From contig JADFOP010000025.1 of NCBI GenBank assembly GCA_022562795.1, positions 1 to 28,476 on the forward strand: a stretch of 28,476 bases of DNA. Direction: 5' to 3'. The notes below the pieces were generated by a model. The model was not told where the DNA came from, made no database searches, and worked only from the letters and a program-made list of their open reading frames with translations. The DNA is from Nitrospinota bacterium. Its GTDB lineage: Bacteria > JADFOP01. Of this stretch, positions 693 through 25,070 are shown piece after piece; positions within the stretch are counted from its first letter, which is position 1, and each line of letters starts with the position of its first letter. The translations under genes were made by a program, and so were the position numbers.

Positions 693-2141
693 CTACCTAT
701 AGAAAAAGTTAGAAAGCCCTCGGGGCAGGTGGGCGAAGATGGACTGATCGTCGAATTTGAGGTGGAGGTCCCGCGCCGAAGAGCGTCTGATGCGCTCCAT
801 TAGTTCTGTAAACTCGGCGTTTTCCGTCTCAAACGGGTCGTCCAAGACGATTTTTATGTTCAGGAAGTTGTTGAGCCTGATGTAGGACCAGTCGATGTCG
901 TACTGGAGGCGCTTCTCCCGGGCCAGCCGAATGAACTCACCCCTAAGGCGCGCCCGCGTGTCGGCGGGCGGAGTCGAGCGGGCTTCCTCGATCTCCTCGT
1001 CGTTGAGAATCCGATCGACGAGGCCGTTGCGCTCCAAAAGGTAGTAAAGGCCCTTGTCCCGGCGGATGTTGTGGTACTGGAGATCGAGCATGAGGAGCCG
1101 GTCGTTGTTCCATGAAATATCATGGTACTCCTGGTAGGTTTCAATCAGTCGCTTCTTGATGACCCAGTCAATCTGCCGGTCAAGTTGCATCGGGTCGGTG
1201 GCCAGGGCCTCGAGGACCGCGCCCCACCGCTGAAGCATGTCGGCCGCAATGGGGCCCGCTCCACGGCTTTCGAAGTAGCGGACGCTCAACTCGTAGTACG
1301 CCTGTTGAATCTCCAGGGCGCTCATCTTTCGCCCGTCTTCCAAGTCCACCCGTCGGGTGAGGGTCGTGTCGTGCGAGATGTCCTTGATGGCCTTGACCGG
1401 GTTGCGCAGCGCAAAGCCCTTATTAATCCCCCCCTCCTCGATGACCTCCAGCACGAGGGCCGTGGTGCCGAACTTCAGATAGGTTGTGTACTCGCTCATG
1501 CTGCTGTCGCCGACGATGACGTGGAGGCGTCGGTATTTTTCGCGGTCCGCATGGGGCTCGTCGCGGGTGTTGATGATGGAGCGGTCGTTGGTCGTGGCCC
1601 CGGAGATTTTCTGGCACACGTGTTCGGCCCGCTGCGAGATGAAATAGTCGGTGCCCCAACGGGTTTTGAAGAGTTTGCCGGCGCCGGTGAAAATCTGGCG
1701 GGCCACCAAGAAGGGGATGAGGCGCTCGGCCAGGTAGTTGAAATCAACGGCACGGTCAACGAGGTAGTTCTCATGGCAGCCGTAGGAGTTGCCCACAAAG
1801 TCGGTGTTGTTCTTGAAGATGGAGAGGTTGCCGGCGAGGCCTTCCTTGGTGGCTCTCCGCTCGGCGAAGTGTAGTAGGTCTTCGATAATCCGCTCACCGG
1901 CCTTGTCGTAGCGAATAACATCATGCAGGGACGCGCATTCAGGGGTTGCGTATTCCGGATGGTAGCCAGTATCGAGGTAGAATTTTGCACCGTTATCGAA
2001 AAAGACGTTAAGGAAACCCTCCATGGTGTCGAGCTTCTCGAAGAGGTACCGGACGGCCTTCTCCACCGGGAGGGTCTTCTTCCCATCGGTGGTAAAGATG
2101 ATTCCGTACTCGCTCTCCAACCCGTAGATGCGCTTTTTCAT
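693..2141 (-). CDS. pafA: Pup-protein ligase PafA
   Basis: PafA joins the C-terminal glutamate of Pup to substrate lysines using ATP. It belongs to the carboxylate-amine ligase fold related to glutamine synthetase. The 482-residue protein opens with RRIxGxExE-type sequence (KKRIYGLESEYG) and has the catalytic Asp in FYLDTGYHPEYATPE (D57). It also has NNTDFVGNSYGCHENYL and NTRDEPHADREKYRRLHVIVGDS. It lacks the roughly 40-residue insertion found in Dop, which separates the two paralogs in this operon. It is slightly longer than mycobacterial PafA (about 450), mostly at the C-terminus. The ATG overlaps the prcA stop as ATGA, indicating translational coupling. It is the last gene of the proteasome operon. 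Confidence 0.97.
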   Translation of the reverse strand: MKKRIYGLESEYGIIFTTDGKKTLPVEKAVRYLFEKLDTMEGFLNVFFDNGAKFYLDTGYHPEYATPECASLHDVIRYDKAGERIIEDLLHFAERRATKEGLAGNLSIFKNNTDFVGNSYGCHENYLVDRAVDFNYLAERLIPFLVARQIFTGAGKLFKTRWGTDYFISQRAEHVCQKISGATTNDRSIINTRDEPHADREKYRRLHVIVGDSSMSEYTTYLKFGTTALVLEVIEEGGINKGFALRNPVKAIKDISHDTTLTRRVDLEDGRKMSALEIQQAYYELSVRYFESRGAGPIAADMLQRWGAVLEALATDPMQLDRQIDWVIKKRLIETYQEYHDISWNNDRLLMLDLQYHNIRRDKGLYYLLERNGLVDRILNDEEIEEARSTPPADTRARLRGEFIRLAREKRLQYDIDWSYIRLNNFLNIKIVLDDPFETENAEFTELMERIRRSSARDLHLKFDDQSIFAHLPRGLSNFFYR

Positions 2142-2833
2142 GAAGCCCCCTGCTCCAGGAGGCGTGCTACCGCCTCATTGGAAAGCCTTTTGAAGGTGCG
2201 ATCCTCAGCCCGCTCCTCGAGCATCGCCACCTCCAGATGCTCGTGAGGGATCGAGCGCTTCTCCACGTGGGCGATGGTATCACTCGACAGCCGGAGAGCC
2301 TCGCCCAGGCTGAGGCCCGCTCTGTAGTGCTCAGAGAGGTAGCTTTCCAGCTCCTTGGTCTGGCCCCCAATGGCGGAGAAGTCTTGGTGGTCGGAGATGG
2401 AGCCGTCATACAGGATATGGAAGATTCGATTGCCCGCACGCCCTGCGCCACCCACCTCCACGATAAGAATCTCAACCTCGAGGGGCTTGAGCTGCTGGGT
2501 GAAGATCTCCCCGATGACCTGACTGAAGGCGTTGGCCAGGCTCTTGGCGGTGACGTCCTCGCGGCTGTAGGCGAACCCTTTGAGGTCGGCGTACCTGATG
2601 GCGGCCTTGCGGAGGTTCTCAAACTCGCTGTACTTGCCCGCTCCCGCGAAGGCGATGCGGTCGTAAACCTCGCTGATCTTGTTTAGGCTCGCAGAGGGGT
2701 TCTCTCCGGCCAGCAACAGCCCTTCGGAGAACTCCACCGCCACGAGGCTTTTGCTCTTGGCTATCCCCTTTCGGCAGTACTCCACCTTGTCCTGGACCAA
2801 CTGCTCGGGGGTTACGTAGAAAGGTATTGTCAT
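2138..2833 (-). CDS. prcA: Proteasome alpha subunit PrcA
   Basis: Structural alpha-ring subunit of the bacterial 20S proteasome, which gates substrate entry and docks the Mpa ATPase. The 231-residue protein begins MTIPFYVTPEQLVQDKVEYCRKGIAKSKS, the usual alpha-type N-terminal gate and H0 helix, and contains AVEFSEGLLLAGENPS and KISEVYDRIAFAGAGKYSEFENLR. No N-terminal catalytic Thr is present, as expected for an alpha subunit. The C-terminal tail is Glu/Arg-rich and ends ARLLEQGAS. It starts 3 bases after the prcB stop and overlaps pafA by 4 bases. Order and spacing match the standard prcB-prcA module, so the two rings should be made in equal amounts. Confidence 0.96.
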   Translation of the reverse strand: MTIPFYVTPEQLVQDKVEYCRKGIAKSKSLVAVEFSEGLLLAGENPSASLNKISEVYDRIAFAGAGKYSEFENLRKAAIRYADLKGFAYSREDVTAKSLANAFSQVIGEIFTQQLKPLEVEILIVEVGGAGRAGNRIFHILYDGSISDHQDFSAIGGQTKELESYLSEHYRAGLSLGEALRLSSDTIAHVEKRSIPHEHLEVAMLEERAEDRTFKRLSNEAVARLLEQGAS

Positions 2834-2836
2834 CTC

Positions 2837-3622
2837 TTAGCTCTTTTGTCGGGCCGCTGTCAGGGTCTCGATTATGGAGCGGACCTCATCTTCGGGAACT
2901 TCGTGGACCCCCTCGGCGGAGATAACCTTTACCGTGGGGAAGATACCTCGAAAAATATCGGGCCCACCCGTTCCAACGTCCTCGTCGGCGGCATCCATAA
3001 GGGCCTCGAGCCCGATGCGGATTCCTTCATCCGTGGGCAGCTCATCCCTGTAAAGCTTTTTCAAGGCCGCTTTTGCCTCGCGGCCTCCGCTTCCCGTGGC
3101 GTGGTAGTCATCCTCCTCGTAGCGGCCCCCCGTGATGTCGTACTTGAAGATTCGGCCCACCCCGGAACGGTCATCGTATCCGGCTAAGATGGGGATGACG
3201 ATGAGCCCTCGAAGGGCTGAAGGCAAGTTTGCCCGGACCATCTGGGCCAGCTTATTAGCCTTGCCCTCCAATACAAGCTGCTCGCCCTCGATTTTCTCGT
3301 AGTGCTCAAGCTCGGTCTGAAAGAGGCGGACCGCCTCGAGGCACGGTCCCGCTACCCCGGCTATAGCGATAAGGGTGGACCCGTCGGCCTTGAAGACCTT
3401 CTCGATTCGTCGGTCCGAGACGTGGAAGCCTTCGGTGGCCATCCGGTCGCCTACCATCACGACGCCGTCGGCCACCTTGAGGGCCAGGATGGTTGTCCCG
3501 TGAGGCTGGCTGGGCGGCAGCTCGGCGCCGGGCTCAAGAAGTACGCTAGGGACGAGGTCAGGAGTGTCGGTCCTCAACAGCTCCCAGAAACTGCTACCCT
3601 GGTACTGAGTGGGGAGTTGCAC
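2837..3622 (-). CDS. prcB: Proteasome beta subunit PrcB (Thr protease)
   Basis: Catalytic beta-ring subunit. The 261-residue precursor has a 42-residue propeptide ending HG, followed by TTILALK. With T43 as the mature Thr1, D59 (in VGDRMAT) falls at mature position 17 and K75 (in RRIEKVF) at position 33, exactly the Thr1/Asp17/Lys33 triad of active beta subunits. GSGG and the C-terminal half follow the family. The start is a GTG one base after the pup stop. A GGGGAGG Shine-Dalgarno sits inside the last codons of pup at suitable spacing, so translation is likely coupled to pup. Activity requires autocatalytic propeptide removal, as known for the family. Confidence 0.96.
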   Translation of the reverse strand: MQLPTQYQGSSFWELLRTDTPDLVPSVLLEPGAELPPSQPHGTTILALKVADGVVMVGDRMATEGFHVSDRRIEKVFKADGSTLIAIAGVAGPCLEAVRLFQTELEHYEKIEGEQLVLEGKANKLAQMVRANLPSALRGLIVIPILAGYDDRSGVGRIFKYDITGGRYEEDDYHATGSGGREAKAALKKLYRDELPTDEGIRIGLEALMDAADEDVGTGGPDIFRGIFPTVKVISAEGVHEVPEDEVRSIIETLTAARQKS

Positions 3623-3623
3623 C

Positions 3624-3878
3624 TCACTGACCTCCCCGCTGGACGTAGTTGCGGACGAACTCCTCGGCGTTTTCTTCCAGCACCTCGTCTATCTGGTCGA
3701 TGAGTTGATCGAGGTCCTCTTTGAGTTTCTGGTCCTTGTCGGATGATACACTCTTGGCGCTCTCGGTCTGCTCGGTTTCCTGGGGTTCGCGACTGCGTTG
3801 ACGCTGCTCCTGCCCACCCGTCGCCCAGGCACCAACGCCCACCCACGAGTCTGAACGCCTGGATTGCGGAACCTGCAT
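3624..3878 (-). CDS. pup: Prokaryotic ubiquitin-like protein Pup (GGQ type)
   Basis: Pup is the protein tag that marks substrates for Mpa and the proteasome. The chosen start gives 84 residues. It is disordered and Gln/Ser/Arg-rich at the N-terminus, then has the conserved amphipathic Mpa-binding helix (LDQLIDQIDEVLEENAEEF) and the ending VQRGGQ. The terminal Gln means the tag must be deamidated by Dop before ligation. The start at 3878 is preceded by AAGGAG at 8-base spacing. A longer GTG start at 3923 (99 aa), overlapping the dop stop as GTGA, is possible but has no comparable ribosome site. The protein is longer than the usual 60-70 residues because of the N-terminal extension. Confidence 0.95.
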   Translation of the reverse strand: MQVPQSRRSDSWVGVGAWATGGQEQRQRSREPQETEQTESAKSVSSDKDQKLKEDLDQLIDQIDEVLEENAEEFVRNYVQRGGQ

Positions 3879-3919
3879 AGAGTCTTCTCCTTCTTCCATC
3901 GGGGCGCGCCGTGCGGCCC

Positions 3920-5404
3920 TCACTGAGTGATGTTTTTCACGAGGTCATGGGCCGATCCCGAGGCGTTGAGCAGCTCCTCCACGTGGGCCCGCGTGCCCCG
4001 CAACGGCTCAGCCATGATAATTCGTTTGATGGGCTCTGTGCCGCCCAGGTTAAAAGAGATCGAGGCCCAGTTGACGCCGTAGACCTCGTCACTGTACCGC
4101 ATCAGACACTGCCCTCGGAAGTATGCGCGGGTGCCTTCGGGCGGCTTATGCATTGCATCCTCGATGTCCTCATCTGTCGTAAGCCTCTCGACGCGGCCCT
4201 GCCTCTCCAAAAGGTGATAAAGCCCTCGATCCTCGCGCGTATCGTGGTACTGGAGGTCCATCATGGCGATGCGGGGGTCGCCCCAAGCCACACCCTTTTT
4301 CTCCTGGTACGATCTTAGCAGAAAGCGCTTGGTCACCCAGTCGAGCTGGCCGATAAGCTCGTCGGGATCGCGAGCCAAGGCATCGAGGGCCGCCTCCCAG
4401 CGATCGCAACAAGCCTCCAGCTCGGCCCCCTGGGGTTTCCGGGCGATGTACTGGCGGGCCTGGTCGAGGTATTCGCGCTGAATTTCCAGAGCGGTCATCC
4501 GCTGTCCATCTTCCATTTCCAAGGGCTGGCGAAGCGAGAGGTCCCGGCTCACTTGTTTCATGGCGGCCACGGGCTTCCGGATGGCCAGGTTAGGGAGGAA
4601 GACGTTGTCTTCGATCATTTTCAACACAAGCAGGGTGGTGCCCCACTTGAGGAAGGTCGCCACCTCCGCCATGTTCGAATCCCCCACGATTAAATGGAGG
4701 CGCCGGTACTTCTCCCTGTCGGCGTGAGGCTCGTCGCGGGTGTTGACGATCGCACGCTTATTCATGGTATCGAGTCCTACCTCGACCTCGAAGAAGTCGG
4801 CACGCTGTGAGATCTGGAAATCACAGGTCGGTGCATTGTTTTCTGCCATCGCCTTGCCGGCCCCGCAGAAAATCTGACGGGTGACAAGAAACGGAATGAT
4901 GTGCTCGACGATGAGCTTAAAGGGGGCACGGCGGTCCATTAAGTAGTTTTCGTGGTAACCGTAGGAGTTGCCCTTCTGGTCGGAGTTGTTCCGGTAGATG
5001 ATGAGGGCACGGCCGGGCGGGAGAGTGGCGTTGGCGTTACGGCGGCAGTTATCAATTATCCGCTCTCCGGCCTTCTCATAAGTGATGAGTTCGATTACCG
5101 AGGAGCACTCGGGCGTCGAGAACTCCGGATGGGCGTGGTCCACGTAGAGGCGCGCCCCGTTGATGAGCATCTTGTTGATCTGGACGTTGTCAGCGTAGCT
5201 CGGAACCTCGAGCTGCTCCTCGACTTGAAACCCGCGCGCGTCGGCATACGGGTTTTCCTCCTCGTAGTCCCATATGACGTTGGCCGTGGTCTGGTGGCTG
5301 TTGACCAGGAGGATGGAGTTGGTTACGGCGTCGAAGTCCTCTTCCCCCAACAGGGAAATGCCGTACTCCGTCTCCGAGCCAATTATGTGGCCGGGAAGCG
5401 CCAT
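3920..5404 (-). CDS. dop: Pup deamidase/depupylase Dop
   Basis: Dop converts the Pup C-terminal Gln to Glu and also removes Pup from substrates. The 494-residue protein is a PafA paralog that begins IIGSETEYGIS. It carries the extra N-terminal insertion with WDYEEENPYADARGF (the Dop loop region, about residues 30-75) that PafA lacks. The catalytic Asp is D89 in LYVDHAHPEFSTPE. NNSDQKGNSYGYHENYL and NTRDEPHADREKYRRLHLIVGDSNMAE complete the ligase-fold signature. The ending GSAHDLVKNITQ is not distinctive. It lies between mpa and pup, 25 bases after the mpa stop. Its presence agrees with the GGQ ending of Pup, which requires a deamidase. Confidence 0.96.
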   Translation of the reverse strand: MALPGHIIGSETEYGISLLGEEDFDAVTNSILLVNSHQTTANVIWDYEEENPYADARGFQVEEQLEVPSYADNVQINKMLINGARLYVDHAHPEFSTPECSSVIELITYEKAGERIIDNCRRNANATLPPGRALIIYRNNSDQKGNSYGYHENYLMDRRAPFKLIVEHIIPFLVTRQIFCGAGKAMAENNAPTCDFQISQRADFFEVEVGLDTMNKRAIVNTRDEPHADREKYRRLHLIVGDSNMAEVATFLKWGTTLLVLKMIEDNVFLPNLAIRKPVAAMKQVSRDLSLRQPLEMEDGQRMTALEIQREYLDQARQYIARKPQGAELEACCDRWEAALDALARDPDELIGQLDWVTKRFLLRSYQEKKGVAWGDPRIAMMDLQYHDTREDRGLYHLLERQGRVERLTTDEDIEDAMHKPPEGTRAYFRGQCLMRYSDEVYGVNWASISFNLGGTEPIKRIIMAEPLRGTRAHVEELLNASGSAHDLVKNITQ

Positions 5405-5429
5405 GTATAACCCAGTGAATTAACCCCGA

Positions 5430-7256
5430 CTACATATATTGACGGGCTATGACGTCTTCAATGTCACTTCTTGGAGGGACATGGCCTCGAAGAAGCGTGC
5501 GCACGTTGACGATTCGCTCGCCCTTGCGGCCGGCGATTCGCGCCCAATCGTCCGGGTTGGTGGTATTGGGCAGGTCCTCGTTCTCTTTGAACTCCTCTCG
5601 GACGGACTCGAGAAGGTCAGATGCCCTAAGGCCCCTCTCCTCGCCGGCGATGGAGCGCTTAAGCGCCAGCTTCTTGGCCCGCCGGACGATATTCTCTATC
5701 ATGGCGCCAGAGGCGAAGTCTTTGAAGTAGAAGACCTCTTTATCCCCTTTCGCGTAGGTCACCTCGAGGAACCGGTTATCGTCGTTCGAGGCGTACATGG
5801 CCTTGACGGTCACGTCGATAAGGCGAGCGACGCAGGCCTCCGGGCCATCGCCGTCGACGGCGAGCTCCTCGCTGTGGATTGGAAGTGTGGAAAGGAGGTA
5901 TTTGGAGAAAACCTCTTTGGCCGCCTCTTCGTCGGGCCTGTCCACCTTGATTTTGAGGTCCAGCCGGCCGGGCCGGAGGATGGCCGGATCGATGAGGTCT
6001 TGGCGGTTGCTCGCCCCAATGATGATCACGCCCCGGAGGGACTCGACTCCATCGATTTCGCTGAGGAATTGGGCGACGATGGTCGTCTCCACGTCCGATG
6101 AGATGCCGCTGCCCCTTATGCGGAAAAGGGCGTCCATCTCATCAAAGAAAACGATGACCGGACACTTCTCATTGGCCTTGGCCTTGGCTTTTTTGAAGAC
6201 CTCCCGAATCTTAAACTCCGTCTCACCCACATACTTGTTGAGCAGCTCCGGGCCCTTGATGTTGAGGAAGTAACCCTTGGTCTCCTCGCCCGTCCTAAGG
6301 CTCATCTCGGTTGCGAGGCTGTTGGCGATGGCCTTCGCGATCATTGTTTTTCCGCACCCCGGCGGACCATAAAGGAGGATACCCTTAGGAGGGTCAAGCC
6401 GGAAGGCAGCGAACTCTTCCGGGTAGAGGTAGGGCAACTCAATGGCGTCTCGCAACGCCTCGATCTGCTCGGAAAGCCCACCGACGTGGTCGTATGTGAC
6501 GTCGGGCACCTCTTCGAGGACAACCTCCTCCACCTGAGTTTTGGGGATCTTCTCCAGAGCGAAGCCACTGCGAGAGTCAACCATCAAGGGGTCACCCACC
6601 TGTGGCATATCCACGCGCAGGGGCTCAGATAGTTGGAAGACCCGTTCTTCGTCGACCCTTCCGAGCAGCACGACGCGATGGTCGTCAAGGAAGTCCTTGA
6701 CAATCATCACCTCACCCTTCGTTTCAAACTCGCGGGCGGCCACGGCGTTGAGCGCCTCGTTGAGTATGAGGGACTGGCCGGGCTCGAGGGACTCCGGATC
6801 CATCCCTGGATGGACATTGACCCGGATTCGGCGGCCGTCTAGGTCAACGTCCACCGTCCCGTCAGCGTTGAGGGCGATGAACTTTCCGTAGGAATTGGGT
6901 GGCGCGGAGAGCTTATCAACCTCCTCTTTCAGCAGATCGATTTGGTGCTTGGCCTCTTGAAAGGCCATGACCAGCTTCTCGTTTTGCTTCCTTGCGTCAG
7001 AGAGCTGCCCGGTGATGCTCTGGTTGGTCTGCTTCATGTCGTCAAAGTCGGAACGCAACTGCTCTAAGCGCTCAGAAAGATCGGTCGATTCGCCCTCGAT
7101 ATACCCCAACTGGCCAAGGAGGTCCTCAATGAGGCTCTCGTATTGGGTCAACTTTTCGTCCAGCCCAGACTCCGATCTTGGGATGTAGTCGGACACCTTC
7201 TTTACAGTATCCCGAACGACCCACTTGCGCTCTCGGTCTTTGAAGGACTTCCCCAT
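5430..7256 (-). CDS. mpa: Proteasome-associated AAA ATPase Mpa/ARC
   Basis: Hexameric unfoldase that captures pupylated proteins and threads them into the 20S core. The 608-residue protein has a long N-terminal coiled coil (about 35-115, the Pup-binding part), tandem OB-type interdomain (about 120-245) and one AAA module. Walker A is GPPGCGKT (297-304), the pore loop contains KYVGE (341-345), Walker B is [10 protein letters not shown] (367-376) and the arginine-finger region is RPGR (429-431 area). It ends ARQYM: the penultimate Tyr resembles the QYL/HbYX-type tail that docks in the PrcA ring. The first gene of the operon, it has GGGAG 6 bases before the ATG and a candidate promoter just upstream. 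Confidence 0.97.
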
Positions 7257-7502: not shown

Positions 7503-7886
7503 TCAGAGGCCCAGCTCCCGATGCCGTTTCTGGGCAAGCTCCATCTCCGACTGGCAATCGCGGCAGTATGGCGCGAGGGGAAGTGCTTGCAACCGCTTGG
7601 CGCCGATAGTCTTCTCGCAACGCTCGCAGACCCCGTATAGCCCAGCTTCAATCTTCTCGAGGGCCTCCTCGATGGCACGCAGCTCTTCTCGCTCCCGGCT
7701 GGAGAGCATGTAGTTGATATCCCGGTCACGGGAGGCGGCGGCCCTGTCAAGGTCGTCTCCCCGATCGAGCTCTATGGCGCTTTCCTCCCGCTTGCTCTCG
7801 GCCAACTTTCGGACGAGTTGCTCGCGCTTTTCCAGCAATAGCTGCTTCTGAGACTCAGATTTCTTTGTTGGCTTCGGTGTGGTCAT
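7503..7886 (-). CDS. DksA/TraR-family zinc-finger transcription regulator
   Basis: Small RNA-polymerase secondary-channel type protein of 127 residues. An N-terminal helical pair (about 10-80) carries DDLDRA (44-49), which fits the DxxDxA motif at the tip of the DksA coiled coil. A C4 zinc finger follows: C87-x2-C90-x17-C108-x2-C111. Members of this family tune transcription with or without ppGpp, or act as general stress regulators (YocK-like). The tip motif supports a genuine DksA-like role, though length and sequence do not separate DksA from TraR/YocK relatives. It starts 14 bases after speB ends and is probably the last gene of the speD-speB unit, an uncommon partnership. Confidence 0.88.
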   Translation of the reverse strand: MTTPKPTKKSESQKQLLLEKREQLVRKLAESKREESAIELDRGDDLDRAAASRDRDINYMLSSREREELRAIEEALEKIEAGLYGVCERCEKTIGAKRLQALPLAPYCRDCQSEMELAQKRHRELGL

Positions 7887-7900
7887 GCTCGCATCCGTCG

Positions 7901-8809
7901 TTATCCGTTCCCGGTAAGATCGAGGCAGAAGAGGTATCCGACCATTTTGTACAGCAGCTTGGCCGCCAGGACATCGGGAGCCCTCAGGCCAGGAATGGGG
8001 GCCAGCTCCATGAGGTCAAACCCTACAATCTCGCGCCGGGCCGCCAGCGTCTTCATTAGGAGCGTCACCGTTGACCAGTCGAGGCCCCCCGGCTCCGGGG
8101 TGCCCACGGCGGGCATTACGGCCGGGTCGAAGACGTCGAGGTCGATGGTGACGTAAACCCTCTCGCCGAGCGACGAACAGACGGCCTCGGCCCATGTTGC
8201 ATCGCCGGTTGCCTCGCTCGCCCAGAAGCACTCCCCGCCTCTCTCGGTCAGCCAGCTACGCTCTTCGGCGGAGCAGCTCCTAACCCCCACAGCAGTCACT
8301 GGAGCCACGTCCCATACCCGCCGCATCACACAGGCGTGGCTAAAGGCGCTGTCATGGTAAGTGTCACGCAGATCTAAGTGGGCGTCAAGCTGGAGGACGC
8401 TTAGGCTCCCGTAGGCCGTCACGTGAGCTCCTACGGCCGCCCTCGTCAGGGTATGCTCCCCGCCTACCGTGGCCACGGTCTTACCCTGATCAATCAAATA
8501 TGAGACGAGGGCCTCCACCCTGTCCAGCATGGCCTTTGGGTCGCCGGCCACCGGCTCCACCTCAGGAGATGTGTAAATCCCCACGGTGCAGGGCTCGACC
8601 CCCAGCTCCTCGTCGTACTCCTCAAGGTATCGGGATGCATCGATTATTGCCCGCGGACCGAACCGACAGCCCGGCTGGTAGGAGGTCGTGGCGTCGTAGG
8701 GAACCGGGAGGATAGCCACACGAGCCCGCTCCCATCCGGCCTGCTCCTCGTCGAGGGCTAAGAACCGATTGGGTAGAATGGGGGCATGGGCCTCGAAGGG
8801 GTTCTTCAC
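7901..8809 (-). CDS. speB: Agmatinase-family ureohydrolase
   Basis: Hydrolyses agmatine (or an aminopropyl derivative) to the diamine plus urea. The 302-residue form chosen here has the full binuclear manganese set: H119 in GGEH, D142/H144/D146 in LDAHLDLRD, and D223/D225 in TIDLDVFDPA, plus SHA in the SHACVM segment. The start is a GTG at 8809 preceded by GGAGG about 9 bases upstream. An upstream in-frame GTG at 8842 (313 aa) has only a weak ribosome site. Lying directly after speD, it fits a route from arginine via agmatine to putrescine and spermidine. N1-aminopropylagmatine ureohydrolase is an alternative specificity. Arginine decarboxylase and spermidine synthase are not in the window. 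Confidence 0.92.
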   Translation of the reverse strand: MKNPFEAHAPILPNRFLALDEEQAGWERARVAILPVPYDATTSYQPGCRFGPRAIIDASRYLEEYDEELGVEPCTVGIYTSPEVEPVAGDPKAMLDRVEALVSYLIDQGKTVATVGGEHTLTRAAVGAHVTAYGSLSVLQLDAHLDLRDTYHDSAFSHACVMRRVWDVAPVTAVGVRSCSAEERSWLTERGGECFWASEATGDATWAEAVCSSLGERVYVTIDLDVFDPAVMPAVGTPEPGGLDWSTVTLLMKTLAARREIVGFDLMELAPIPGLRAPDVLAAKLLYKMVGYLFCLDLTGNG

Positions 8810-8913
8810 GCCTCCTTCTCCTCCGTTACGAGAGAGATTCACCGCATAGTTCCCAGCTAAGTGGAGCGCCGGGAAAGATGCATGTGGCAGGCCGCGCCAC
8901 CGGGTCGAGGCAG

Positions 8914-9339
8914 TTAACCGAAGCGCACGAGCCGGTCCTGGCGAACCAGGTCGCCGGCCTTGTCGATCTCCGTGGGAAACTCCCTGCCTCGATCGAAGCT
9001 CTGGACCTCCAGCTTATCAAGCCCGAAGGTCACTTCCACCTCCTTGGAGGCGGCCTCCGTGTCAAACCACTTACAGGAAAAGAAGTCCACGCTCAAGAAC
9101 CCCTTCTCCGGAAAGGTATGTACGGTGATGTGGCTCTCGGCGATCAGGACCACGCCGGAGAGCCCCCAATCCTCGGGCTTGGAGCCTTTGTATTCAAAGA
9201 CGTACGGGGGCATGATTTTCGTCATGCCCATCTTCGCAGGGTATTCATCCAGGAAGCGGTAGAGACCCTCCAAATCCGTCAGACGATCCCGCTCCCCGCC
9301 GTATCCGTCAATTATCAGGTGCTTTCCAAATCCCATCAT
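8914..9339 (-). CDS. speD: S-adenosylmethionine decarboxylase proenzyme
   Basis: Makes decarboxylated AdoMet, the aminopropyl donor for spermidine. The 141-residue proenzyme is the small prokaryotic class. The self-cleavage site is IAESHITVHTFPE, where S69 becomes the pyruvoyl group. H74 and C89 (FFSCK) sit 5 and 15 residues further along, the same spacing as the catalytic His and Cys of the Thermotoga enzyme. KIMPPYVFEY precedes it. Some close SpeD homologs are known to decarboxylate amino acids instead, and that cannot be excluded by eye. The ATG (two in tandem) follows a strong GGAGG at 8 bases. A hairpin lies just before this site. Confidence 0.94.
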   Translation of the reverse strand: MMGFGKHLIIDGYGGERDRLTDLEGLYRFLDEYPAKMGMTKIMPPYVFEYKGSKPEDWGLSGVVLIAESHITVHTFPEKGFLSVDFFSCKWFDTEAASKEVEVTFGLDKLEVQSFDRGREFPTEIDKAGDLVRQDRLVRFG

Positions 9340-9496
9340 TGCACCTTCCTCCCCCCGGACGGCTCAATCGAGCTTCGTCCGTCCCTCAAATGGAAGGTGA
9401 GGTCTGCTGTCCTTCCAGTTTTCTCGTGGTCCAAATCCCCCGCCTGCCCGGCGGGCGGAGCCAAACGGCCCTTCCGTTAAGTCCGTGTTCCGGACG

Positions 9497-9556
9497 CTAC
9501 GGGAGAGAGTAATGGGGCCGACAGCGGCGGGCCCCTCCGTATCGGAAGAAGTCCAT
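9497..9556 (-). CDS. Second leader mini-ORF (19 aa) upstream of speD
   Basis: Begins MDFFRYGGARRCRPHYSLP and is then stopped by TAG. Its ATG shares a base with the TGA of the preceding mini-ORF (TGATG), a classical reinitiation junction. It contains four Arg codons in 19, three of them within four codons. It lacks its own clear ribosome site, so translation would depend on the upstream ORF. A peptide this short may be a leader with no cellular function. Not homologous to anything I recognise. Confidence 0.3.
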   Translation of the reverse strand: MDFFRYGGARRCRPHYSLP

Positions 9557-9654
9557 CAGGATTTTAAGAAGGGAGGGCGCGGAACACACGCCCTCTCGGC
9601 TCCTATGGCCGGTAGCCCTCTACTGCCGGTGTGGTGAACATCCACCCTTCGCAT
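9556..9654 (-). CDS. First leader mini-ORF (32 aa) upstream of speD
   Basis: A 32-codon ORF beginning MRRVDVHHTG and ending PPFLKS. Its ATG is preceded by GGGAGGAG at 8 bases, a ribosome site as good as those of the real genes nearby. It lies within the speD leader and ends in a TGATG junction with the next mini-ORF. It has five Arg codons. The start codon sits in the loop of a short CCACC/GGTGG stem. A role as a regulatory upstream ORF is inferred from position and ribosome site only. Confidence 0.35.
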   Translation of the reverse strand: MRRVDVHHTGSRGLPAIGAERACVPRPPFLKS

Positions 9655-9773
9655 GGTGGTTGCTCCTCCCATCCTTGGTGCGGCTTCGGAGCGGAAGGCT
9701 CCTCGTCTCGGTGGGGGAATGGAACGACCGGCCAGCACGCCACACCCGTGCCGGCCGGCTTATAGTAACCGCA

Positions 9774-9803
9774 TTAATATACAGCCTTTATCTAGCCTGT
9801 CAA
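9774..9803 (-). promoter_or_regulatory. Strong candidate promoter for speD-speB-dksA-like unit
   Basis: Minus strand: perfect TTGACA (9803-9798), then TATATT at 16-base spacing (9781-9776) within the A/T-rich block TATATTAAT, which also allows TATTAA at 18. It starts 21 bases after the secF stop and is the best -35 match in the window. Predicted start near 9767. Confidence 0.55.
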
Positions 9804-15858: not shown

Positions 15859-16776
15859 TTACGGACGCACCTTGGCTCGCTCAATTTCCATGAAGATAGA
15901 ACCATTCTTGAAGATGCGGACGTCACCCGTGGACTCAGAGATGACGATTGCCAGGGCGTCGGTGGCCTCGGTGATTCCAGCCGCAGCTGCGTGGCGGCTG
16001 CCCAATCCCATGGGCATCTTTTCGGTATCCAGAGCCGCGGCCAGATGGCGGCCGGCCGATACAATGACCCCGTCGCCGCGGATAATGAAGGCGCCGTCCA
16101 TCATGGAGAACTCCTTGATCGTCTCCCGGAGCCTGCGGTCAAGGATGTTGCGCTCAGATTCGGGATAGCCCTTAAAAGGGTTGATGATCAACTGACGCGA
16201 GATCGGGAGGACTCTTTCTTGATCGCCAAGGACAAAGGTAGTCCCTATGGGCTTGCCCTCACGGCCCTCGCTGGCGAGCTCCACGGCGAGATTGAGAACC
16301 CCCTCAAAGACTTCCGGGTTAACGCCCGACGAGACGGCGGAGACATCCTCACTCGTCAGAAGCTCGAACTCCCTGCTGATGTCCAATACCACGAGGCTGT
16401 CCAGCGTCTTGAGCTTTGGCAGGCCCGAGAGGCAAACGATTTTCTCATCACTTCCGACGAGGTTTGCTGCGAGGCTCATGATGACGCCCATCTTAACCTG
16501 ACCCATGCGCGTCAGGGCGACCTTGGGCACCATGAGGACGTTGTCCAACACCTTGCTGGCCTCTTCGTAGGTTTCCTCGTCGCGGGTGGCGAAGACCACC
16601 TTGAATCGGCCTTTGAAGCCCTCGAAGAACTCCCAGTCTTCGAGCAGGTCGCTTACGACCAGGATGGTGTCGGCCCCAATTTTGTCGGCGATGAGGCAGG
16701 CGTGCTCCAGCATGAGGCGATTGACCGCCTTGATGCCCTTCCCCTTTGTGGCGCCCTTGGCTGGCTTCTTCATCAT
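15859..16776 (-). CDS. DacZ-like diadenylate cyclase (DisA_N domain)
   Basis: Likely makes cyclic di-AMP from two ATP. The 305-residue protein has no predicted membrane segment. Residues about 15-135 look like the pyruvate-kinase C-terminal-like domain (AVNRLMLEHACLIADKIGAD, then LVVSDLLEDWEFFEGF). Residues about 155-300 form a DisA_N cyclase domain with DGA at 227-229 and GLGSRHAAAAGIT at 257-269. This order is that of the archaeal DacZ class rather than membrane CdaA or octameric DisA. The usual RHR triplet reads RHA here, so the second Arg is replaced; in DacZ-type enzymes this site varies. It is the first gene of the cluster, with a promoter 30-60 bases upstream. Confidence 0.85.
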   Translation of the reverse strand: MMKKPAKGATKGKGIKAVNRLMLEHACLIADKIGADTILVVSDLLEDWEFFEGFKGRFKVVFATRDEETYEEASKVLDNVLMVPKVALTRMGQVKMGVIMSLAANLVGSDEKIVCLSGLPKLKTLDSLVVLDISREFELLTSEDVSAVSSGVNPEVFEGVLNLAVELASEGREGKPIGTTFVLGDQERVLPISRQLIINPFKGYPESERNILDRRLRETIKEFSMMDGAFIIRGDGVIVSAGRHLAAALDTEKMPMGLGSRHAAAAGITEATDALAIVISESTGDVRIFKNGSIFMEIERAKVRP

Positions 16777-19020: not shown

Positions 19021-20415
19021 TTATTCCAGGGCCTTTTTGACCGTATAGAGCCGAAGGATGGTCACCAGATTCGGGACCACGGCTAAGAAGTAGATGGCCA
19101 GCCGCAGCTGGTTAAAGATTCCCCCGAGAAAGATGACGAAGAGGCGGACGTCCCTGGAGTAGGGGAGGTATCGCAAGAGCCCGTCATCCTCATCCACGTA
19201 ATTGCGCTTTGCCTCGGCCAGGAACTTGGCCCGGTGGATGGACGAGAGCGGGAGGCCCATGAGGGCCACAAAGCCTACGAAGATGATGGAGAAGCTGCCT
19301 GAAAGCAGGTAGGAGGAGTAGACCATGCCCATGACCGTCAGACCATCAACGTACCGGTCGAGCATGTGTTCGAAGTAAGCCCCATATGGGCTGACCTGGT
19401 GCTTGAGCCGGGCGATCTCCCCGTCCACGCCGTCGAGGATCGAGGAGGTCTGGACGAGAATGCCAGCCAGGGCCGAGAGCAACCAAACGAGCACAGGGCG
19501 CCCGGCGGCCACGAGGCCCATGGCAAAGAAACAGGCGGCCCCGAGGATACCCAGGGCGAAACCGACCAGGGATATCTGGTTGGGGGAGATGGGATAGGGT
19601 GCCAGCAGGCGGGTCACCTTGATGGAGAAAAACCGGTTGATTTGCTGGCTGACCGGGCCGTCTATGCGCTTGGCAAGCTTGAGTCTCGCAAGGAGACGCT
19701 CCTCTCCCGCGATGAGCGCCTCCGGGGTGTCGACGTCTAGCCAGAAGCGCCCGCCGATCTCCACCGCCCGGATTCCGCCATTCGCGATCAGGCGGCGAAT
19801 TCCTCCTGAGAGGGAGCCGTCGCCTAGCCGCCGTGCATCTCCAAGGGCCTCAAAGAGCATCGGCTGACACAGGAAAATGCCCGTATCGGCGGCGTCGGGC
19901 TCCTCAAGCCCCTTTCCGATGGCGGTGATGGCTTCTCCCTCGAGGCGCACCAAAGTGGCGTCGTCCGGATCAAATAGATCGCTCAAGCGGCGGTCCACGG
20001 CCAGAAGGCATTCCCCGCTCCCATTATCAGCGGCCAAGAGATTTTTAAGAAGGGCTGGCTCGAAAAGATGGTCGCACATTAGAACGAGGAAGGGACCCGA
20101 GACGTACGGGGAGCAGGCGGCCACGGAGGTGCCGTTGCCGGCCTCCCAATCGGGGTTATCCACCACCCTAATGGTCAAGTCGTTCCGCTCCTGGAGCCGT
20201 TCCACATGAGGCAGAATCTCTTCCTTCCGGTGCCCCACGACGACGAGGAACTCCCGCACACCCACCTCCAGACAAGAGAGAATGGAGCGCTCCAGAAGTG
20301 TGAGCCCCAACAGGGGGATCAGCGGCTTGGGTAGGTCTCGCCCGCCCTCCCGCAGGCGGCTGCCCTCCCCGGCAGCCAGGATCACCGCAGGAGGAGTTGC
20401 CGCCTTAGCGGTCAC
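19021..20415 (-). CDS. Fused CTP:inositol-phosphate cytidylyltransferase / CDP-alcohol phosphotransferase
   Basis: Bifunctional protein of 464 residues resembling IPCT-DIPPS of Archaeoglobus and Thermotoga. Residues about 8-245 form a nucleotidyltransferase: LAAGEGSRLR (13-22), LPKPLIPL with K30, and the metal Asp in MCDHLF (115). Residues about 255-464 form a membrane CDP-alcohol phosphotransferase with about six helices. The CDP motif runs from D328 (DGVDGEIAR, 328-336) to D353, but the third acidic position is E349 (GAYFEHMLD) instead of Asp. In the known pathway, inositol-1-phosphate is activated as CDP-inositol and condensed with a second molecule to di-myo-inositol phosphate-phosphate. 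Upstream ino1 supports this. A lipid or other polyol acceptor is also possible. Confidence 0.9.
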   Translation of the reverse strand: MTAKAATPPAVILAAGEGSRLREGGRDLPKPLIPLLGLTLLERSILSCLEVGVREFLVVVGHRKEEILPHVERLQERNDLTIRVVDNPDWEAGNGTSVAACSPYVSGPFLVLMCDHLFEPALLKNLLAADNGSGECLLAVDRRLSDLFDPDDATLVRLEGEAITAIGKGLEEPDAADTGIFLCQPMLFEALGDARRLGDGSLSGGIRRLIANGGIRAVEIGGRFWLDVDTPEALIAGEERLLARLKLAKRIDGPVSQQINRFFSIKVTRLLAPYPISPNQISLVGFALGILGAACFFAMGLVAAGRPVLVWLLSALAGILVQTSSILDGVDGEIARLKHQVSPYGAYFEHMLDRYVDGLTVMGMVYSSYLLSGSFSIIFVGFVALMGLPLSSIHRAKFLAEAKRNYVDEDDGLLRYLPYSRDVRLFVIFLGGIFNQLRLAIYFLAVVPNLVTILRLYTVKKALE

Positions 20416-20424
20416 GGCGTTTCC

Positions 20425-21588
20425 CTAGCTCTCTTGCAGGAAGGGGCCCTCGGTGAGGGCCTCGGCGCCGTCCAGGGTGGGTGCGGCGAACCGCTTCAGC
20501 ATCTCCCGCGCCTCCGAGTCGTCATACTGCTCTACCGGCGACTTGAAGAGATAGGCGCTCGCCTCGACGATGGGCCCGGAAAGCCCCCGGTCCAGCGCCA
20601 CCTTGGCCGCCCGCACTGCATCCATCATGACGCCCGCCGAGTTGGGGGAGTCCTCCACAGATAGGCGGACCTCGATGTCCATGGGGACCCCGCCGAACTG
20701 CTCGGCCTCGATCCGCAAGAAACAGAGCTTGTTGTCGTTGAGCCAGGGCACGTAATCGCTGGGTCCGATGTGGAGGTCGTCGGGGTCGAGAGGTTGGCCG
20801 TCCATCTGGCTCACTACCGACTGGGTTTTGCTGACCTTTTTGCTCTGCAGGCGGGAGCGGTCCAGCATGTTGAAGAAATCGGTGTTACCCCCCACGTTCA
20901 ACTGGTAGGCCCTCTTGACCGGATGGCCACGGTCGTGGAAGAGCTTCGTCAAGACCCGGTGGACGATGGTGGCGCCCACTTGGGACTTGATGTCGTCGCC
21001 CAGCACAGGGAGCCCCGCCTCTCTGAACCGTTCGCCGTAAAGCTTGGAGATGAAGACCGGTACGGCGTTGACGAAGGCGCACCCGGCCTCAATAGAGCAG
21101 TCGGCGTAGAAATAGGTGTTCCGCTCACTTCCCACAGGCAGATAGTTGATCACCACGTCCACTTGCTTATCCCGCAAGGAGCGTACGATGGCCTCCTGGG
21201 CCTCCGCCTCGCTGGCGTAAATATTTCTCCTCGGCATGAACCGCCGCTCCTCCGGGATCATGTCGTTGTGCTCCGGGATACTGTCGATCACGTATCCCAT
21301 CTCGACCGGACAATCGAGATACGGAATTTCTGGCTGGAAGACGACGGTGCAGTTCGGCTCGGCAAAAACCGCCTCGGAAAGGTCCAGGCCCACCTTACGC
21401 TCATCCAGGTCAAACGCGGCGACAAACTGAATATCGCATGCCCGATAGCCGGCGAAGTCCTTGGTGAGCAGGCCTGGAATCTCGGCCTCCGGATCCGCGT
21501 AATAGAATCGCCCCTGGACCAGCGAGCTTGCGCAGTTTCCCACACCGATTATGGCTGTTCTAATACCATTCCAAGTGGACGCACTCAT
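20425..21588 (-). CDS. ino1: Inositol-3-phosphate synthase (actinobacterial/archaeal type)
   Basis: Converts glucose-6-phosphate to inositol-3-phosphate using internal NAD. The 387-residue form begins MSASTWNGIRTAIIGVGNCASSLVQG, the Rossmann loop that matches Mycobacterium Ino1 almost word for word. YLPVGSE, AFVNAVPVFI, GDDIKSQVGATIVHR, LNVGGNTDFFNML, KKVSKTQ, HIGPSDYVPWL and SPNSAGVMMDAVRAAK follow. The start at 21588 has GGAGGAG at 5 bases; an upstream in-frame ATG at 21705 would add 39 non-conserved residues. The stop lies 9 bases before the cytidylyltransferase start. With its long leader it heads the inositol unit. Confidence 0.96.
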   Translation of the reverse strand: MSASTWNGIRTAIIGVGNCASSLVQGRFYYADPEAEIPGLLTKDFAGYRACDIQFVAAFDLDERKVGLDLSEAVFAEPNCTVVFQPEIPYLDCPVEMGYVIDSIPEHNDMIPEERRFMPRRNIYASEAEAQEAIVRSLRDKQVDVVINYLPVGSERNTYFYADCSIEAGCAFVNAVPVFISKLYGERFREAGLPVLGDDIKSQVGATIVHRVLTKLFHDRGHPVKRAYQLNVGGNTDFFNMLDRSRLQSKKVSKTQSVVSQMDGQPLDPDDLHIGPSDYVPWLNDNKLCFLRIEAEQFGGVPMDIEVRLSVEDSPNSAGVMMDAVRAAKVALDRGLSGPIVEASAYLFKSPVEQYDDSEAREMLKRFAAPTLDGAEALTEGPFLQES

Positions 21589-21941
21589 ATGTTCTCCTCC
21601 CTCCATAAAATCAATTGATCCTATAGCTCTCCTCCCCAAGATAGGATGAATTGGGTTAAACCGTCTCGACCACGCGAGACCATCCTTGTCGCATTGTGCA
21701 TTCACTACCCTCCAACGCCTCGAGCAAGGCGTCCCTCAAGGTCGCCACGCCGCCCACACCCAAGTACGGTGGATGCGAAATGAACATTATTCGGCGCGAA
21801 GGGTAAAGCTTACAAAACTGTGACTCGTTTGCTCCTCACGTACTGCGGCCCCTCGACCGAAGCCGACGACAATACAGCCAACCATCTCATGGGACGGCAA
21901 AGAGGCCTAAAAGTTCTCGTCGGGCTAATATGTGAGGAACT
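21589..21941 (-). promoter_or_regulatory. Long leader of the ino1 transcript
   Basis: About 350 bases between the candidate transcription start and ino1. It contains an ACGCCT/AGGCGT hairpin around 21714-21731 and no clear ORF other than the in-frame extension of ino1. No known riboswitch core was recognised. It may be regulatory or simply a long untranslated region. Confidence 0.3.
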
Positions 21942-22567: not shown

Positions 22568-23713
22568 TCACACCCCCGCCACATCGAGCCGGTAGAGCTT
22601 TTGGGCATTACCGTGGAGGATCGCCTCAGCCGCCTCCAGCGCCTCCTCTTCCGTGAGGGAGCCGAAGGCCACTATCTCGCCCAGGGTGGCCGCCAGGGCC
22701 TGCTTGGCGTGGGTTGCGCCCCACCAGTAGAGCTCGGGAATGGTAAAGCCGTCGGAGCCGTACAGGACCTTGCTCCAGGGAGCAATCCCCAGAAGGTCGC
22801 CCAGGATGGAGACCATGCTGTAGTGGACGAACGGGATGGCCAGCGAGAGCCCCACGTAGACATTCGCGTAGAGGCTCACCAGGTAGCCCGCTTCTCGAAC
22901 AAAGGGGTAGCCGGCGTGGAGCAGCACGACTGAGGCCCCATCGCAGACCTCATCTTCCAGGAGCGAGCGCAGGTGGAGAGGGTTACTCAGCCTTAGGTCA
23001 AGGTCGGAGTCCCCGAACCCGGTGTGGAATTGAATTGGAACCTTCAGCCTGCCGCTCATCTCAACACCCTGCCAGATGCAGTAATCGAGCAGTTGTTTGT
23101 GCTGGAGCCGGATGGCACCCTTCCGTTCGGCCTCGCTGCGCACTTCGTCGAAGGCCGCCCCGGCCTCATCCACAGTGGTTGGCTCCAAGGCAAGCCCGGT
23201 CCGGTAGGCGATAATGCTTTTCAGGGCCACACAGCCGGCCGCAACCCCGGCCTCCACCTCCTCCCGGTACCGCGACAGAAAGGAGGTGAAGTCGTTCTCC
23301 TCCATTATGAGCCGTTCCAAAAGGTCTTCGAGGCGAAGGATGGGATGGACCTGGCACGGAAGCAGCGCCCGCAGCTCAGAGACGGGAAGGCTCCCCGGGG
23401 GGAAGGCCTCGTCGACGAGCAGCGCTACGATTCTCGCCTCAGTGACGAGCCTCCCCCCATAAGCGGCGATGTCTTGAGCCTTGCGGGCCCGGAGGATTGC
23501 CGTCAGTGTGGGCTCACACCCAAGCAGCGAGCTCCAGTCTTTTATCGCCCGGCGGAAAAAGAGCGAAGTGGGCACGTGGTGGCGGGCCTGGTCGCGCTCG
23601 TCGCTCTCGCTGAACAGAGCCAGGGCCTCTTCTTCGCCAAGCGGGACATGGGGCGGGGAGAGGGAATGGCAATGATGGTCGATGACGGGGAGTTCTAGGA
23701 TGGAGAGGCGCAT
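22568..23713 (-). CDS. Amidohydrolase, partner of the GS-like ligase (FluG N-half type)
   Basis: Metal-dependent hydrolase of 381 residues in the amidohydrolase-2 family. Seen are H14-x-H16 in DHHCHS, a possible carbamylated K165 (ALKSIIAYR), H230 in QFHTGFGD, H266 in LLHAGYP and D321 in YGSDG. These are the positions expected of a TIM-barrel metal centre. It starts 4 bases after the GS-like gene. In fungal FluG and plant nodulin/GS-like proteins these two domains are fused in the order amidohydrolase-GS; here they are separate genes in the order GS-amidohydrolase. The natural substrate is unknown and may be an amide made or used by the ligase. Confidence 0.86.
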   Translation of the reverse strand: MRLSILELPVIDHHCHSLSPPHVPLGEEEALALFSESDERDQARHHVPTSLFFRRAIKDWSSLLGCEPTLTAILRARKAQDIAAYGGRLVTEARIVALLVDEAFPPGSLPVSELRALLPCQVHPILRLEDLLERLIMEENDFTSFLSRYREEVEAGVAAGCVALKSIIAYRTGLALEPTTVDEAGAAFDEVRSEAERKGAIRLQHKQLLDYCIWQGVEMSGRLKVPIQFHTGFGDSDLDLRLSNPLHLRSLLEDEVCDGASVVLLHAGYPFVREAGYLVSLYANVYVGLSLAIPFVHYSMVSILGDLLGIAPWSKVLYGSDGFTIPELYWWGATHAKQALAATLGEIVAFGSLTEEEALEAAEAILHGNAQKLYRLDVAGV

Positions 23714-23717
23714 GGGC

Positions 23718-25070
23718 TTAAAACTTGTAGAAGTGCTGGGCCAGCTCGAACTCCAGGTCCTTATCTTTGAAGCCTTCCCAGACGGCCCGCTTCACGATGA
23801 TGTACTCTTTTGCCAGGACCGGCCCCATGGCCTCGCAGAGGACCTCATCCTGCTCGAGGGCGTTGATGGCTTCTTCGAGCGTGGTGGGCAGGCGTTCGAT
23901 GCCGCGGGAAGCCCGCTCCTCCTCGCTCAGGCGCGCCGGGTCGACCATCAACGGCTCGCCCGGGTCTATCTCTTTTTCAATCCCGTCCAGCCCGGCGGCC
24001 AGCAGCCCTCCCAGGGCGATGTAGGGGTTGTTGCTAGGGTCGGAGCACTTGAGCTCGAGGTTGAGGCTCTTCATCTCCCGCTCCCAGTAGCCCGAGGCGA
24101 TGCGGACCGCCGCCTCCCGGTTGTCGGGCCCGTAACAGGTGTAGGCGGACGCCCATGTCTGAGGCTGAAGCCGCCGGTAGGAGTTGACGCTGGGGGCGGT
24201 AAGGGCAACAAGGGCGGGCAGGTGGGCAAGGACCCCACCGATAAAGTGATAGCCGTGGCGACTGAGGCGATGGGGGTCATCGGCGTCGAAGAATAGATTC
24301 AGCTGGCCGTCCTCGTCCCAGGCGCTAAGGTGGATGTGGCAGCCGTTGCCCGGGAGGTCGGCGAATGGTTTGGGGGCGAAGGTAGCCCACAGCCCGTGGG
24401 TGCGCGCCACGCCCCGGATCGTCTCTCTAAAGACGATCTGGTTGTCCGCCGCCTTGAGGGCCGTAGTGTGGACGATGGGAATCTCCTGCTGGCCTGGACC
24501 CAGCTCGGGGAAGTATTTTTCCACCCTGACGCCCTGCTCGCTCAGGGCGTCGATCATCTCATGGATAATCGCCTCGGCCTCGTCCATACCGATGGAGCTG
24601 AAACAGAGGCTCTGGTCAATGGGCAAAAAGCTCTCCCCGCTTTGTCGGACGAGGTAGAACTCGTTCTCGAATGCCGCTTGCCACTTAATCCCCCGCCGGC
24701 TGGAGCGCTCGATCATTCGACCGAGGAACGAGCGAGGGCAGGCCTCCCAGGGCGTGCGGTCGTGCTCGACGAGGTTAACCAGCATCCTGGCGCTTCGGGG
24801 CGCATACGGCAACTGGGTGAACGACTCTAAGTCGGGAACCATCCGAATCTCCCCCACGGGGCCGAAAGTCCCCTCAGGAGCGATGGCGTCCAGCATGATG
24901 AACGACTGCATGGCGACGGTGAGTCCGATCCCAGATTCCATGGAGGACTTGAGAAAATCGATGTGGGTTGTCTTGCCCCGGATGACCCCGTCGCTGTCAC
25001 AATAGAGAAAGCGGACGAGCTGGACCCCGGCCTCGCGGGCTCGGGCGATAACACGATCCGGATCAGACAT
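23718..25070 (-). CDS. Glutamine-synthetase-like gamma-glutamyl ligase
   Basis: A 450-residue class I-like glutamine synthetase homolog. Metal and substrate ligands are present: E135 and E137 in AFENEFYL, E189 and E196 in FPELGPGQQEI, H245/H247 in GNGCHIHLS, R299 in NSYRRLQP, R323 in EAAVRIASG and E339. No adenylylation Tyr is visible. Family relatives that pair with amidohydrolases (FluG-type) or act on polyamines and amines (PuuA-type) ligate glutamate to amines other than ammonia. The adjacent amidohydrolase and divergent XRE gene favour a catabolic or dedicated role rather than the housekeeping GlnA. GAGGTG precedes the ATG by 7 bases. Confidence 0.9.
   Translation of the reverse strand: MSDPDRVIARAREAGVQLVRFLYCDSDGVIRGKTTHIDFLKSSMESGIGLTVAMQSFIMLDAIAPEGTFGPVGEIRMVPDLESFTQLPYAPRSARMLVNLVEHDRTPWEACPRSFLGRMIERSSRRGIKWQAAFENEFYLVRQSGESFLPIDQSLCFSSIGMDEAEAIIHEMIDALSEQGVRVEKYFPELGPGQQEIPIVHTTALKAADNQIVFRETIRGVARTHGLWATFAPKPFADLPGNGCHIHLSAWDEDGQLNLFFDADDPHRLSRHGYHFIGGVLAHLPALVALTAPSVNSYRRLQPQTWASAYTCYGPDNREAAVRIASGYWEREMKSLNLELKCSDPSNNPYIALGGLLAAGLDGIEKEIDPGEPLMVDPARLSEEERASRGIERLPTTLEEAINALEQDEVLCEAMGPVLAKEYIIVKRAVWEGFKDKDLEFELAQHFYKF

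Follow-up and report, generated by a model that had tools for sequence, protein, structure and literature searches.

In eukaryotes, the upstream open reading frame (uORF) that precedes the AdoMetDC gene encodes a MAGDIS-type peptide. Control of bacterial polyamine genes by uORFs is already known in kind: in Salmonella and E. coli, orf34/speFL controls the ornithine decarboxylase gene speF (PMC6386406), and mdtU controls mdtJI, which encodes a spermidine exporter, in E. coli (PMC7815308). SpeFL stalls the ribosome with ornithine as its ligand. Since orf34/speFL and mdtU came before, the kind of control considered here is not new, and the original prediction went too far in stating that a bacterial analogue of the eukaryotic uORF would be.

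The enzymes of the SpeD fold form the second part of the background. In the portion of Li et al. 2023 (PMC10407285) drawn on here, the presence of SpeD without SpeE serves as the criterion for SpeD homologs that have turned into arginine or ornithine decarboxylases, and a SpeB or AguA/AguB partner points to arginine as the substrate. According to the same portion, the loss of one Pro is the main difference between the pyruvoyl L-arginine decarboxylase SpeDA and AdoMetDC, and the diagnostic residues of the pyruvoyl L-ornithine decarboxylase SpeDC are Gln, Thr, Phe and Tyr in the central region. This portion describes no leader of SpeDA genes, and a partial coverage of the literature gave none of the sort reported below for any bacterial speD or SpeDA gene.

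The locus lies in a stretch of 28,476 nucleotides (the window) from the genome of a marine bacterium of the Nitrospinae (G000, 97% complete). Three species genomes represent the phylum in our sample. A speD homolog was not found in the third, and the sole close relative for the leader comparison is the congeneric 'Nitrospinae bacterium AH_259_B05_G02_I21' (G001, JALLOF010000001.1; the sister), so that all conservation evidence on the leader is a comparison of these two genomes. Both have the gene order secF-speD-speB-dksA-like, and the leader lies within 485 bp of intergenic DNA between secF and the speD homolog (Table 1).

Table 1. Features of the speD homolog, its leader and the adjoining agmatinase gene
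Feature	Position	Strand	Remark
Sigma-70-type promoter, TTGACA-16-TATATT	9776..9803	minus	11/12 consensus bases; 82% identical in sister
-35 element, TTGACA	9803-9798	minus	16-nt spacer to -10
-10 element, TATATT	9781-9776	minus	sister form TTGACA-16-TATAGT
5' hairpin GCCGGCCGGCACG...CGTGCTGGCCGGTC, GC-rich, at transcript start	9726..9759	minus	stem kept in sister, with one-sided wobble changes
15-nt pyrimidine-rich element CGTTCCATTCCCCCA, candidate anti-SD	9712..9726	minus	identical in both genomes
ORF1 ribosome-binding region GGATGGGAGGAGC	9662..9674	minus	invariant between congeners
ORF1 Shine-Dalgarno (SD) sequence GGGAGGAG	9670-9663	minus	strong
Mini-ORF1	9556..9654	minus	ATG, 32 codons + TGA; MRRVDVHHTGSRGLPAIGAERACVPRPPFLKS, then stop
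9-bp hairpin GAGGGCGTG/CGCGCCCTC inside ORF1	9573..9595	minus	U-G to U-A change, pair kept
Mini-ORF2	9497..9556	minus	19 codons, MDFFRYGGARRCRPHYSLP, then stop; 4 Arg
Hairpin GGGGCC/GGCCCC inside ORF2	9514..9535	minus	stem invariant, loop changed
Hairpin directly before speD SD	9357..9384	minus	predicted from sequence
speD SD region GGGGGGAGGAAGG, G-rich	9344..9356	minus	abutted by the preceding hairpin
speD homolog (PF02675), probable pyruvoyl L-arginine decarboxylase SpeDA	8914..9339	minus	from family and context
Agmatinase speB (TIGR01230)	7901..8842	minus	same operon as speD homolog

In layout the locus resembles both enterobacterial systems. The speF leader measures 516 nt against about 430 nt here, with a uORF of some 32 to 34 codons in both (PMC6386406), and mdtU (34 codons) likewise belongs to the long leader that precedes a polyamine gene and is predicted to pair with the downstream ribosome-binding site (PMC7815308). 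Unlike speFL, the present leader has two TGATG-coupled ORFs before an enzyme of the SpeD fold in a different phylum, and its ligand sensing is hypothetical; its peptides are unrelated, and neither mini-ORF matches PF10940 (DUF2618). The mdtJI operon, in turn, specifies an exporter rather than a biosynthetic enzyme and has another peptide, and Rho termination has been shown for it (PMC7815308).

The speD homolog and its operon

Against TIGR03330 (AdoMetDC), the window protein scores 75.0 bits, just below the equivalog cut-off of 75.65, a difference that carries little weight alone. Spermidine synthase (speE, PF01564) is absent from G000 and G001 and present in 11 of 14 control genomes; OKR-type decarboxylase (PF01276) and PvlArgDC (PF01862) are likewise absent from the two congeners. 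LysA is the sole PF02784 protein in G000, and G001 also encodes a PF02784 protein; a SpeY-like PF01916 protein is encoded in both genomes. Among the relatives, speB adjoins the speD homolog at five loci (L007, L009, L010, L012, L013), a SpeY homolog lies nearby at two (L012, L037), and two of the genomes hold a second, more distant SpeD homolog.

Canonical SpeD homologs carry the pattern xPxG[VI]SG...HTWPExGYAA...TCG. In the window protein, and in relatives at least 46% identical to it, the corresponding pattern is EDWG/KDWG/MDWG/QDMG/DDEG/GEDG...HT[FYW]P...FSCK. The pyruvoyl Ser and the catalytic His and Cys are kept (ESH-x-x-x-H and FSC, aligned to the T. maritima AdoMetDC 1TLU). We infer that the Pro missing from the window protein is the one that marks AdoMetDC versus SpeDA in the consulted portion of PMC10407285.

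The absence of SpeE, the adjoining speB, the SpeY-like gene in the genome and the loss of the AdoMetDC-specific Pro are all traits of SpeDA as set out in that portion of PMC10407285. Because of these traits, and of the apparent lack of another arginine or ornithine decarboxylase, the gene is probably not an AdoMetDC gene; it is most likely speDA, whose product would convert arginine to agmatine for the adjacent agmatinase, which would then yield putrescine. The clade of the window protein (HTFPxK...FSCK) is absent from the characterised SpeDA proteins named in that portion, and the activity here is a predicted one. The annotation would need correction: speD in these genomes without spermidine synthase probably denotes an arginine decarboxylase. 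A pyruvoyl ornithine decarboxylase was also considered and judged unlikely, as the protein has no Gln in the central region (the SpeDC diagnostic positions being known approximately from the same portion) and speB would be pointless.

This assignment divides the interpretation first given to the leader. The analogy with the polyamine-sensing uORF of AdoMetDC is weakened, as the gene is probably not that of an AdoMetDC; the likeness to the eukaryotic case consists in an upstream ORF before a gene annotated as AdoMetDC, whereas MAGDIS occurs in neither mini-peptide. The other half, a link of the Arg codons to arginine or agmatine supply, is the better one, with a candidate SpeDA beside an agmatinase.

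Directly downstream of the agmatinase gene lies a DksA/TraR zinc-finger protein gene (7503-7886), and the order speD-speB-dksA-like recurs in L007, an unrelated genome. Elsewhere in the window, a protein resembling gamma-glutamylputrescine synthetase, which scores 548 bits against a cut-off of 650, adjoins an amidohydrolase (22568-25070); these are possibly genes of polyamine breakdown.

Conservation of the promoter and mini-ORFs

The architecture first proposed for this DNA is borne out on the minus strand: the consensus-like promoter, the leader of about 430 nt from promoter to speD homolog, the 32-codon ORF with an excellent SD, the overlap of its TGA with the ATG of an Arg-rich 19-codon ORF (TGATG at 9556) and the hairpin that ends next to the speD SD are all present. 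The promoter is the sole promoter-like match in 1.9 kb, where 0.4 would be expected in shuffles. ORF2 has no SD of its own.

Between the congeners, the promoter has an identity of 0.82, the 5' hairpin of 0.74, the 5'UTR before ORF1 of 0.81, ORF1 of 0.77 and ORF2 of 0.78; for the distal leader, from ORF2 to speD, the value is 0.59. At 4-fold sites, the same pair of genomes gives 0.61 for secD, 0.59 for secF and 0.57 for speB. Measured against this level, the module of about 300 bp from the promoter to the end of ORF2 (about 74-82% identical) is constrained. The distal leader shows no such constraint, except that both genomes have an SD-proximal hairpin, of different sequence. Purifying selection between the two species thus acts on the promoter, on mini-ORF1 and on the beginning of mini-ORF2, while the remaining leader drifts neutrally. 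The best-conserved stretches are the promoter and the ORF1 ribosome-binding site. Within the speD homolog (8914-9339), the 4-fold sites are unusually conserved (0.76 of 55 sites), and a further constraint at the RNA level may exist inside the gene.

Conservation among relatives, which the original prediction had made a touchstone, extends to the sister species and was found no further than the genus. Matches were confined to the two congeners in a BLAST search of the leader in 60 relatives, in a covariance-model search of 145 genomes and, at significance, in a search of 98 genomes with the mini-ORF2 peptide. Three weak leader matches (G077, G102, G110; E 0.003-0.006 per genome) are what chance predicts over 145 genomes. 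No matching peptide occurs in the leaders of the more distant speD homologs (L007-L013, L037); the L007 leader contains a TTGACA...TATATT promoter, together with a 27-codon ORF of the kind that chance would give.

Open frames of 20 or more codons are common in this G+C-rich DNA (the six frames of a 540-bp stretch contain 14 of them), so that mini-ORFs alone prove nothing. The evidence for them is instead that start, length and TGATG are conserved in the sister and that the substitutions there are specific to the reading frame. Sister ORF1 (MLGPDVHHPGKPGLPAIGAQRACVPRPHFLES, then stop) begins with GTG, spaced as the ATG is in G000 from an SD that is unchanged, and runs for 32 codons, free of indels, to the same TGATG stop. 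Sister ORF2 (MDCFRHGGARRCRPLDSLTP...) keeps all four Arg, one of them through a double change from CGC to AGG; the consecutive Arg codons of its ARRCRP segment are CGC CGC in G000, against AGG CGC in the sister genome. ORF2 does not keep its length of 19 codons: the sister lacks the TAG stop, and its frame would continue for about 280 nt and enter speD in another reading frame.

When the same substitutions were placed at random, the amino-acid conservation of ORF1 had a p of 0.013-0.02 and that of ORF2 a p of 0.07-0.10 (jointly, p~0.006), and the other same-strand frames were not significant. One antisense frame, which has wobble positions in common with ORF1, scores p~0.01-0.05 and shows the limit of a coding test with two genomes. 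Because SD, start, length and TGATG are kept and the conservation is specific to the frame, ORF1 is probably translated; initiation on ORF2 is plausible. An antisense gene on the plus strand was dismissed, being broken by indels in the 5' leader, as was a programmed -1 frameshift joining ORF1 to ORF2, whose candidate site TTAAAA reads TTAGAA in the sister.

Conservation is strongest in the second half of ORF1 (LPAIGA-[EQ]-RACVPRP) and in GGARRCRP of ORF2. Such peaks would be expected if the nascent peptide of ORF1 or ORF2 stalled the ribosome with a small molecule such as arginine, agmatine or putrescine/homospermidine bound, as SpeFL does with ornithine; if the short peptide arrested in this way, the sister could do without an ORF2 stop. 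The conservation is, however, too shallow to define a motif, no arrest-peptide family was matched (the Pfam search with both mini-ORFs of both species had no match at E<=10), and the likeness to SpeFL is one of position and role, not of sequence. Arrest by the peptide appears improbable, the most so of the explanations weighed here.

RNA pairing and the proposed control

The leader folds more stably than its dinucleotide shuffles (z = -3.15). The loop of the GGGGCC/GGCCCC hairpin contains the consecutive Arg codons of ORF2, with alternative pairings also predicted, and at the place of the hairpin before the speD SD the sister has an 8-bp hairpin (CCGGACGG/CCGTCCGG). RNAalifold found one two-sided compensatory pair only. 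A search of Rfam 15 with the window and related loci had no match at the gathering threshold, and the sub-threshold matches ar14, mir-4672 and Termite-leu are at chance level.

The fold invites the thought that the leader is a structured RNA, riboswitch-like or bound by a protein, whose conserved blocks serve folding while the mini-ORFs are incidental in a G+C-rich leader. Many invariant blocks are indeed mutually complementary (UUCCAUUC:GGAUGGGA, GGAGC:GCUCC, GAGGGCG:CGCCCUC), and the folding z value, the abundance of open frames and the unconserved ORF2 stop agree with it. Yet this would leave unexplained the joint frame-specific conservation of amino acids, the swap of ATG for GTG with SD and TGATG intact and the lack of indels in the ORFs, and the Rfam matches are weak and below threshold. 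We regard it as unlikely.

By predicted duplex energy, no other part of either leader complements the speD SD as well as the element CGTTCCATTCCCCCA (rank 1 of 372 and 1 of 339 in the two genomes), even though the speD SDs of the two genomes differ. Its predicted alternative partner is the ORF1 SD region GGATGGGA, the pairing having P about 0.5 when 5' fragments of the two RNAs are folded. Shuffling the element is a weak control (11/30 for the window RNA, where pairing is not clearly abolished, and 3/30 for the sister). When ribosome masks were set at several sites, the folding outcomes differed between the two species.

The simplest mechanism, modelled on Salmonella orf34, would be a switch between the pairings of CGUUCCAUUCCCCCA driven by translation of ORF1 and ORF2. 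Ribosomes would load at the strong ORF1 SD, terminate at TGATG and re-initiate on the Arg-rich ORF2, where arginyl-tRNA supply, or a ligand read by the nascent peptide, would set the speed of translation or cause stalling. The translation state would then select among the alternative RNA pairings and so free or hide the speD SD, with the invariant CGUUCCAUUCCCCCA element, a complement of both the ORF1 SD and the speD SD, as the likely switch strand. No intrinsic terminator lies on the minus strand between the promoter and speD, so that control would act on translation, perhaps with the help of Rho, in the manner of the speF leader of Salmonella. Attenuation at an intrinsic terminator, including a classical amino-acid attenuator, is rejected on the same ground. 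The Salmonella leader has in common with this one the lack of an intrinsic terminator and a CU-rich strand opposite the decarboxylase SD, here a predicted one, and orf34 likewise has consecutive Arg codons in a conserved peptide, which here fall in the second ORF (PMC6386406).

The same features would also be compatible with mini-ORFs that regulate nothing, a strong promoter and a translated 5' leader protecting the mRNA or fixing the level of speD. The promoter and the ORF1 ribosome-binding site are, after all, the best-conserved parts, ORF2 varies in length, a terminator is lacking and masked folding differs between the species. A length of 430 nt, a conserved anti-SD element and the conserved TGATG coupling exceed what such a role needs, and the Arg codons of ORF2 are conserved as well; this explanation is put on a par with that of a structured RNA, as improbable.

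The locus appears to be best read as a uORF leader that would respond to arginine and resemble Salmonella orf34/speFL in function. The regulated leader of the original prediction accordingly keeps its ground through conservation in the sister and the coding signature of ORF1. We propose tentatively, with somewhat less than even confidence, that 9803-9497 supplies a speDA-speB operon with its promoter and with a regulatory leader that acts through translation of ORF1 and ORF2. The fuller claim, that tandem TGATG-coupled leader peptides sense arginine or polyamine and, by means of an anti-SD strand acting at long range, control an operon for a pyruvoyl arginine decarboxylase and an agmatinase, as a switch that evolved independently of speFL in a little-studied marine lineage, is doubtful.

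Should this claim hold, bacteria outside the enterobacteria would have evolved uORF control of polyamine synthesis anew and on a different enzyme, with a uORF rich in codons for the enzyme's own substrate acting at the entry of arginine into polyamine synthesis. Reading amino-acid supply through leader translation would then suggest itself as a recurrent solution to polyamine homeostasis.

Other genes in the window

An actinobacterial-type Pup-proteasome cluster outside Actinobacteria occupies 693-7256. Its members are two PafA/Dop-like proteins of the Pup ligase family (3920-5404, confirmed by PF03136, and 693-2141, assigned by sequence similarity), what look like proteasome subunits (2138-3622), an ARC/Mpa ATPase (5430-7256) and, as a candidate Pup, a small protein with a GGQ end (3624-3923). 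The product of 15859-16776 is closest to the haloarchaeal-type diadenylate cyclase DacZ, at 146 bits against a curated cut-off of 430. At 19021-21705, a sugar-nucleotidyltransferase/CDP-alcohol phosphotransferase-like fusion adjoins a homolog of inositol-3-phosphate synthase; these genes may possibly serve di-myo-inositol phosphate synthesis, which would be unexpected in a presumably mesophilic marine bacterium. Finally, two adjacent genes at 26718-28366 resemble, as judged from their sequences, phage Gp37/Gp68-type and three-Cys-motif partner (TcmP) genes.
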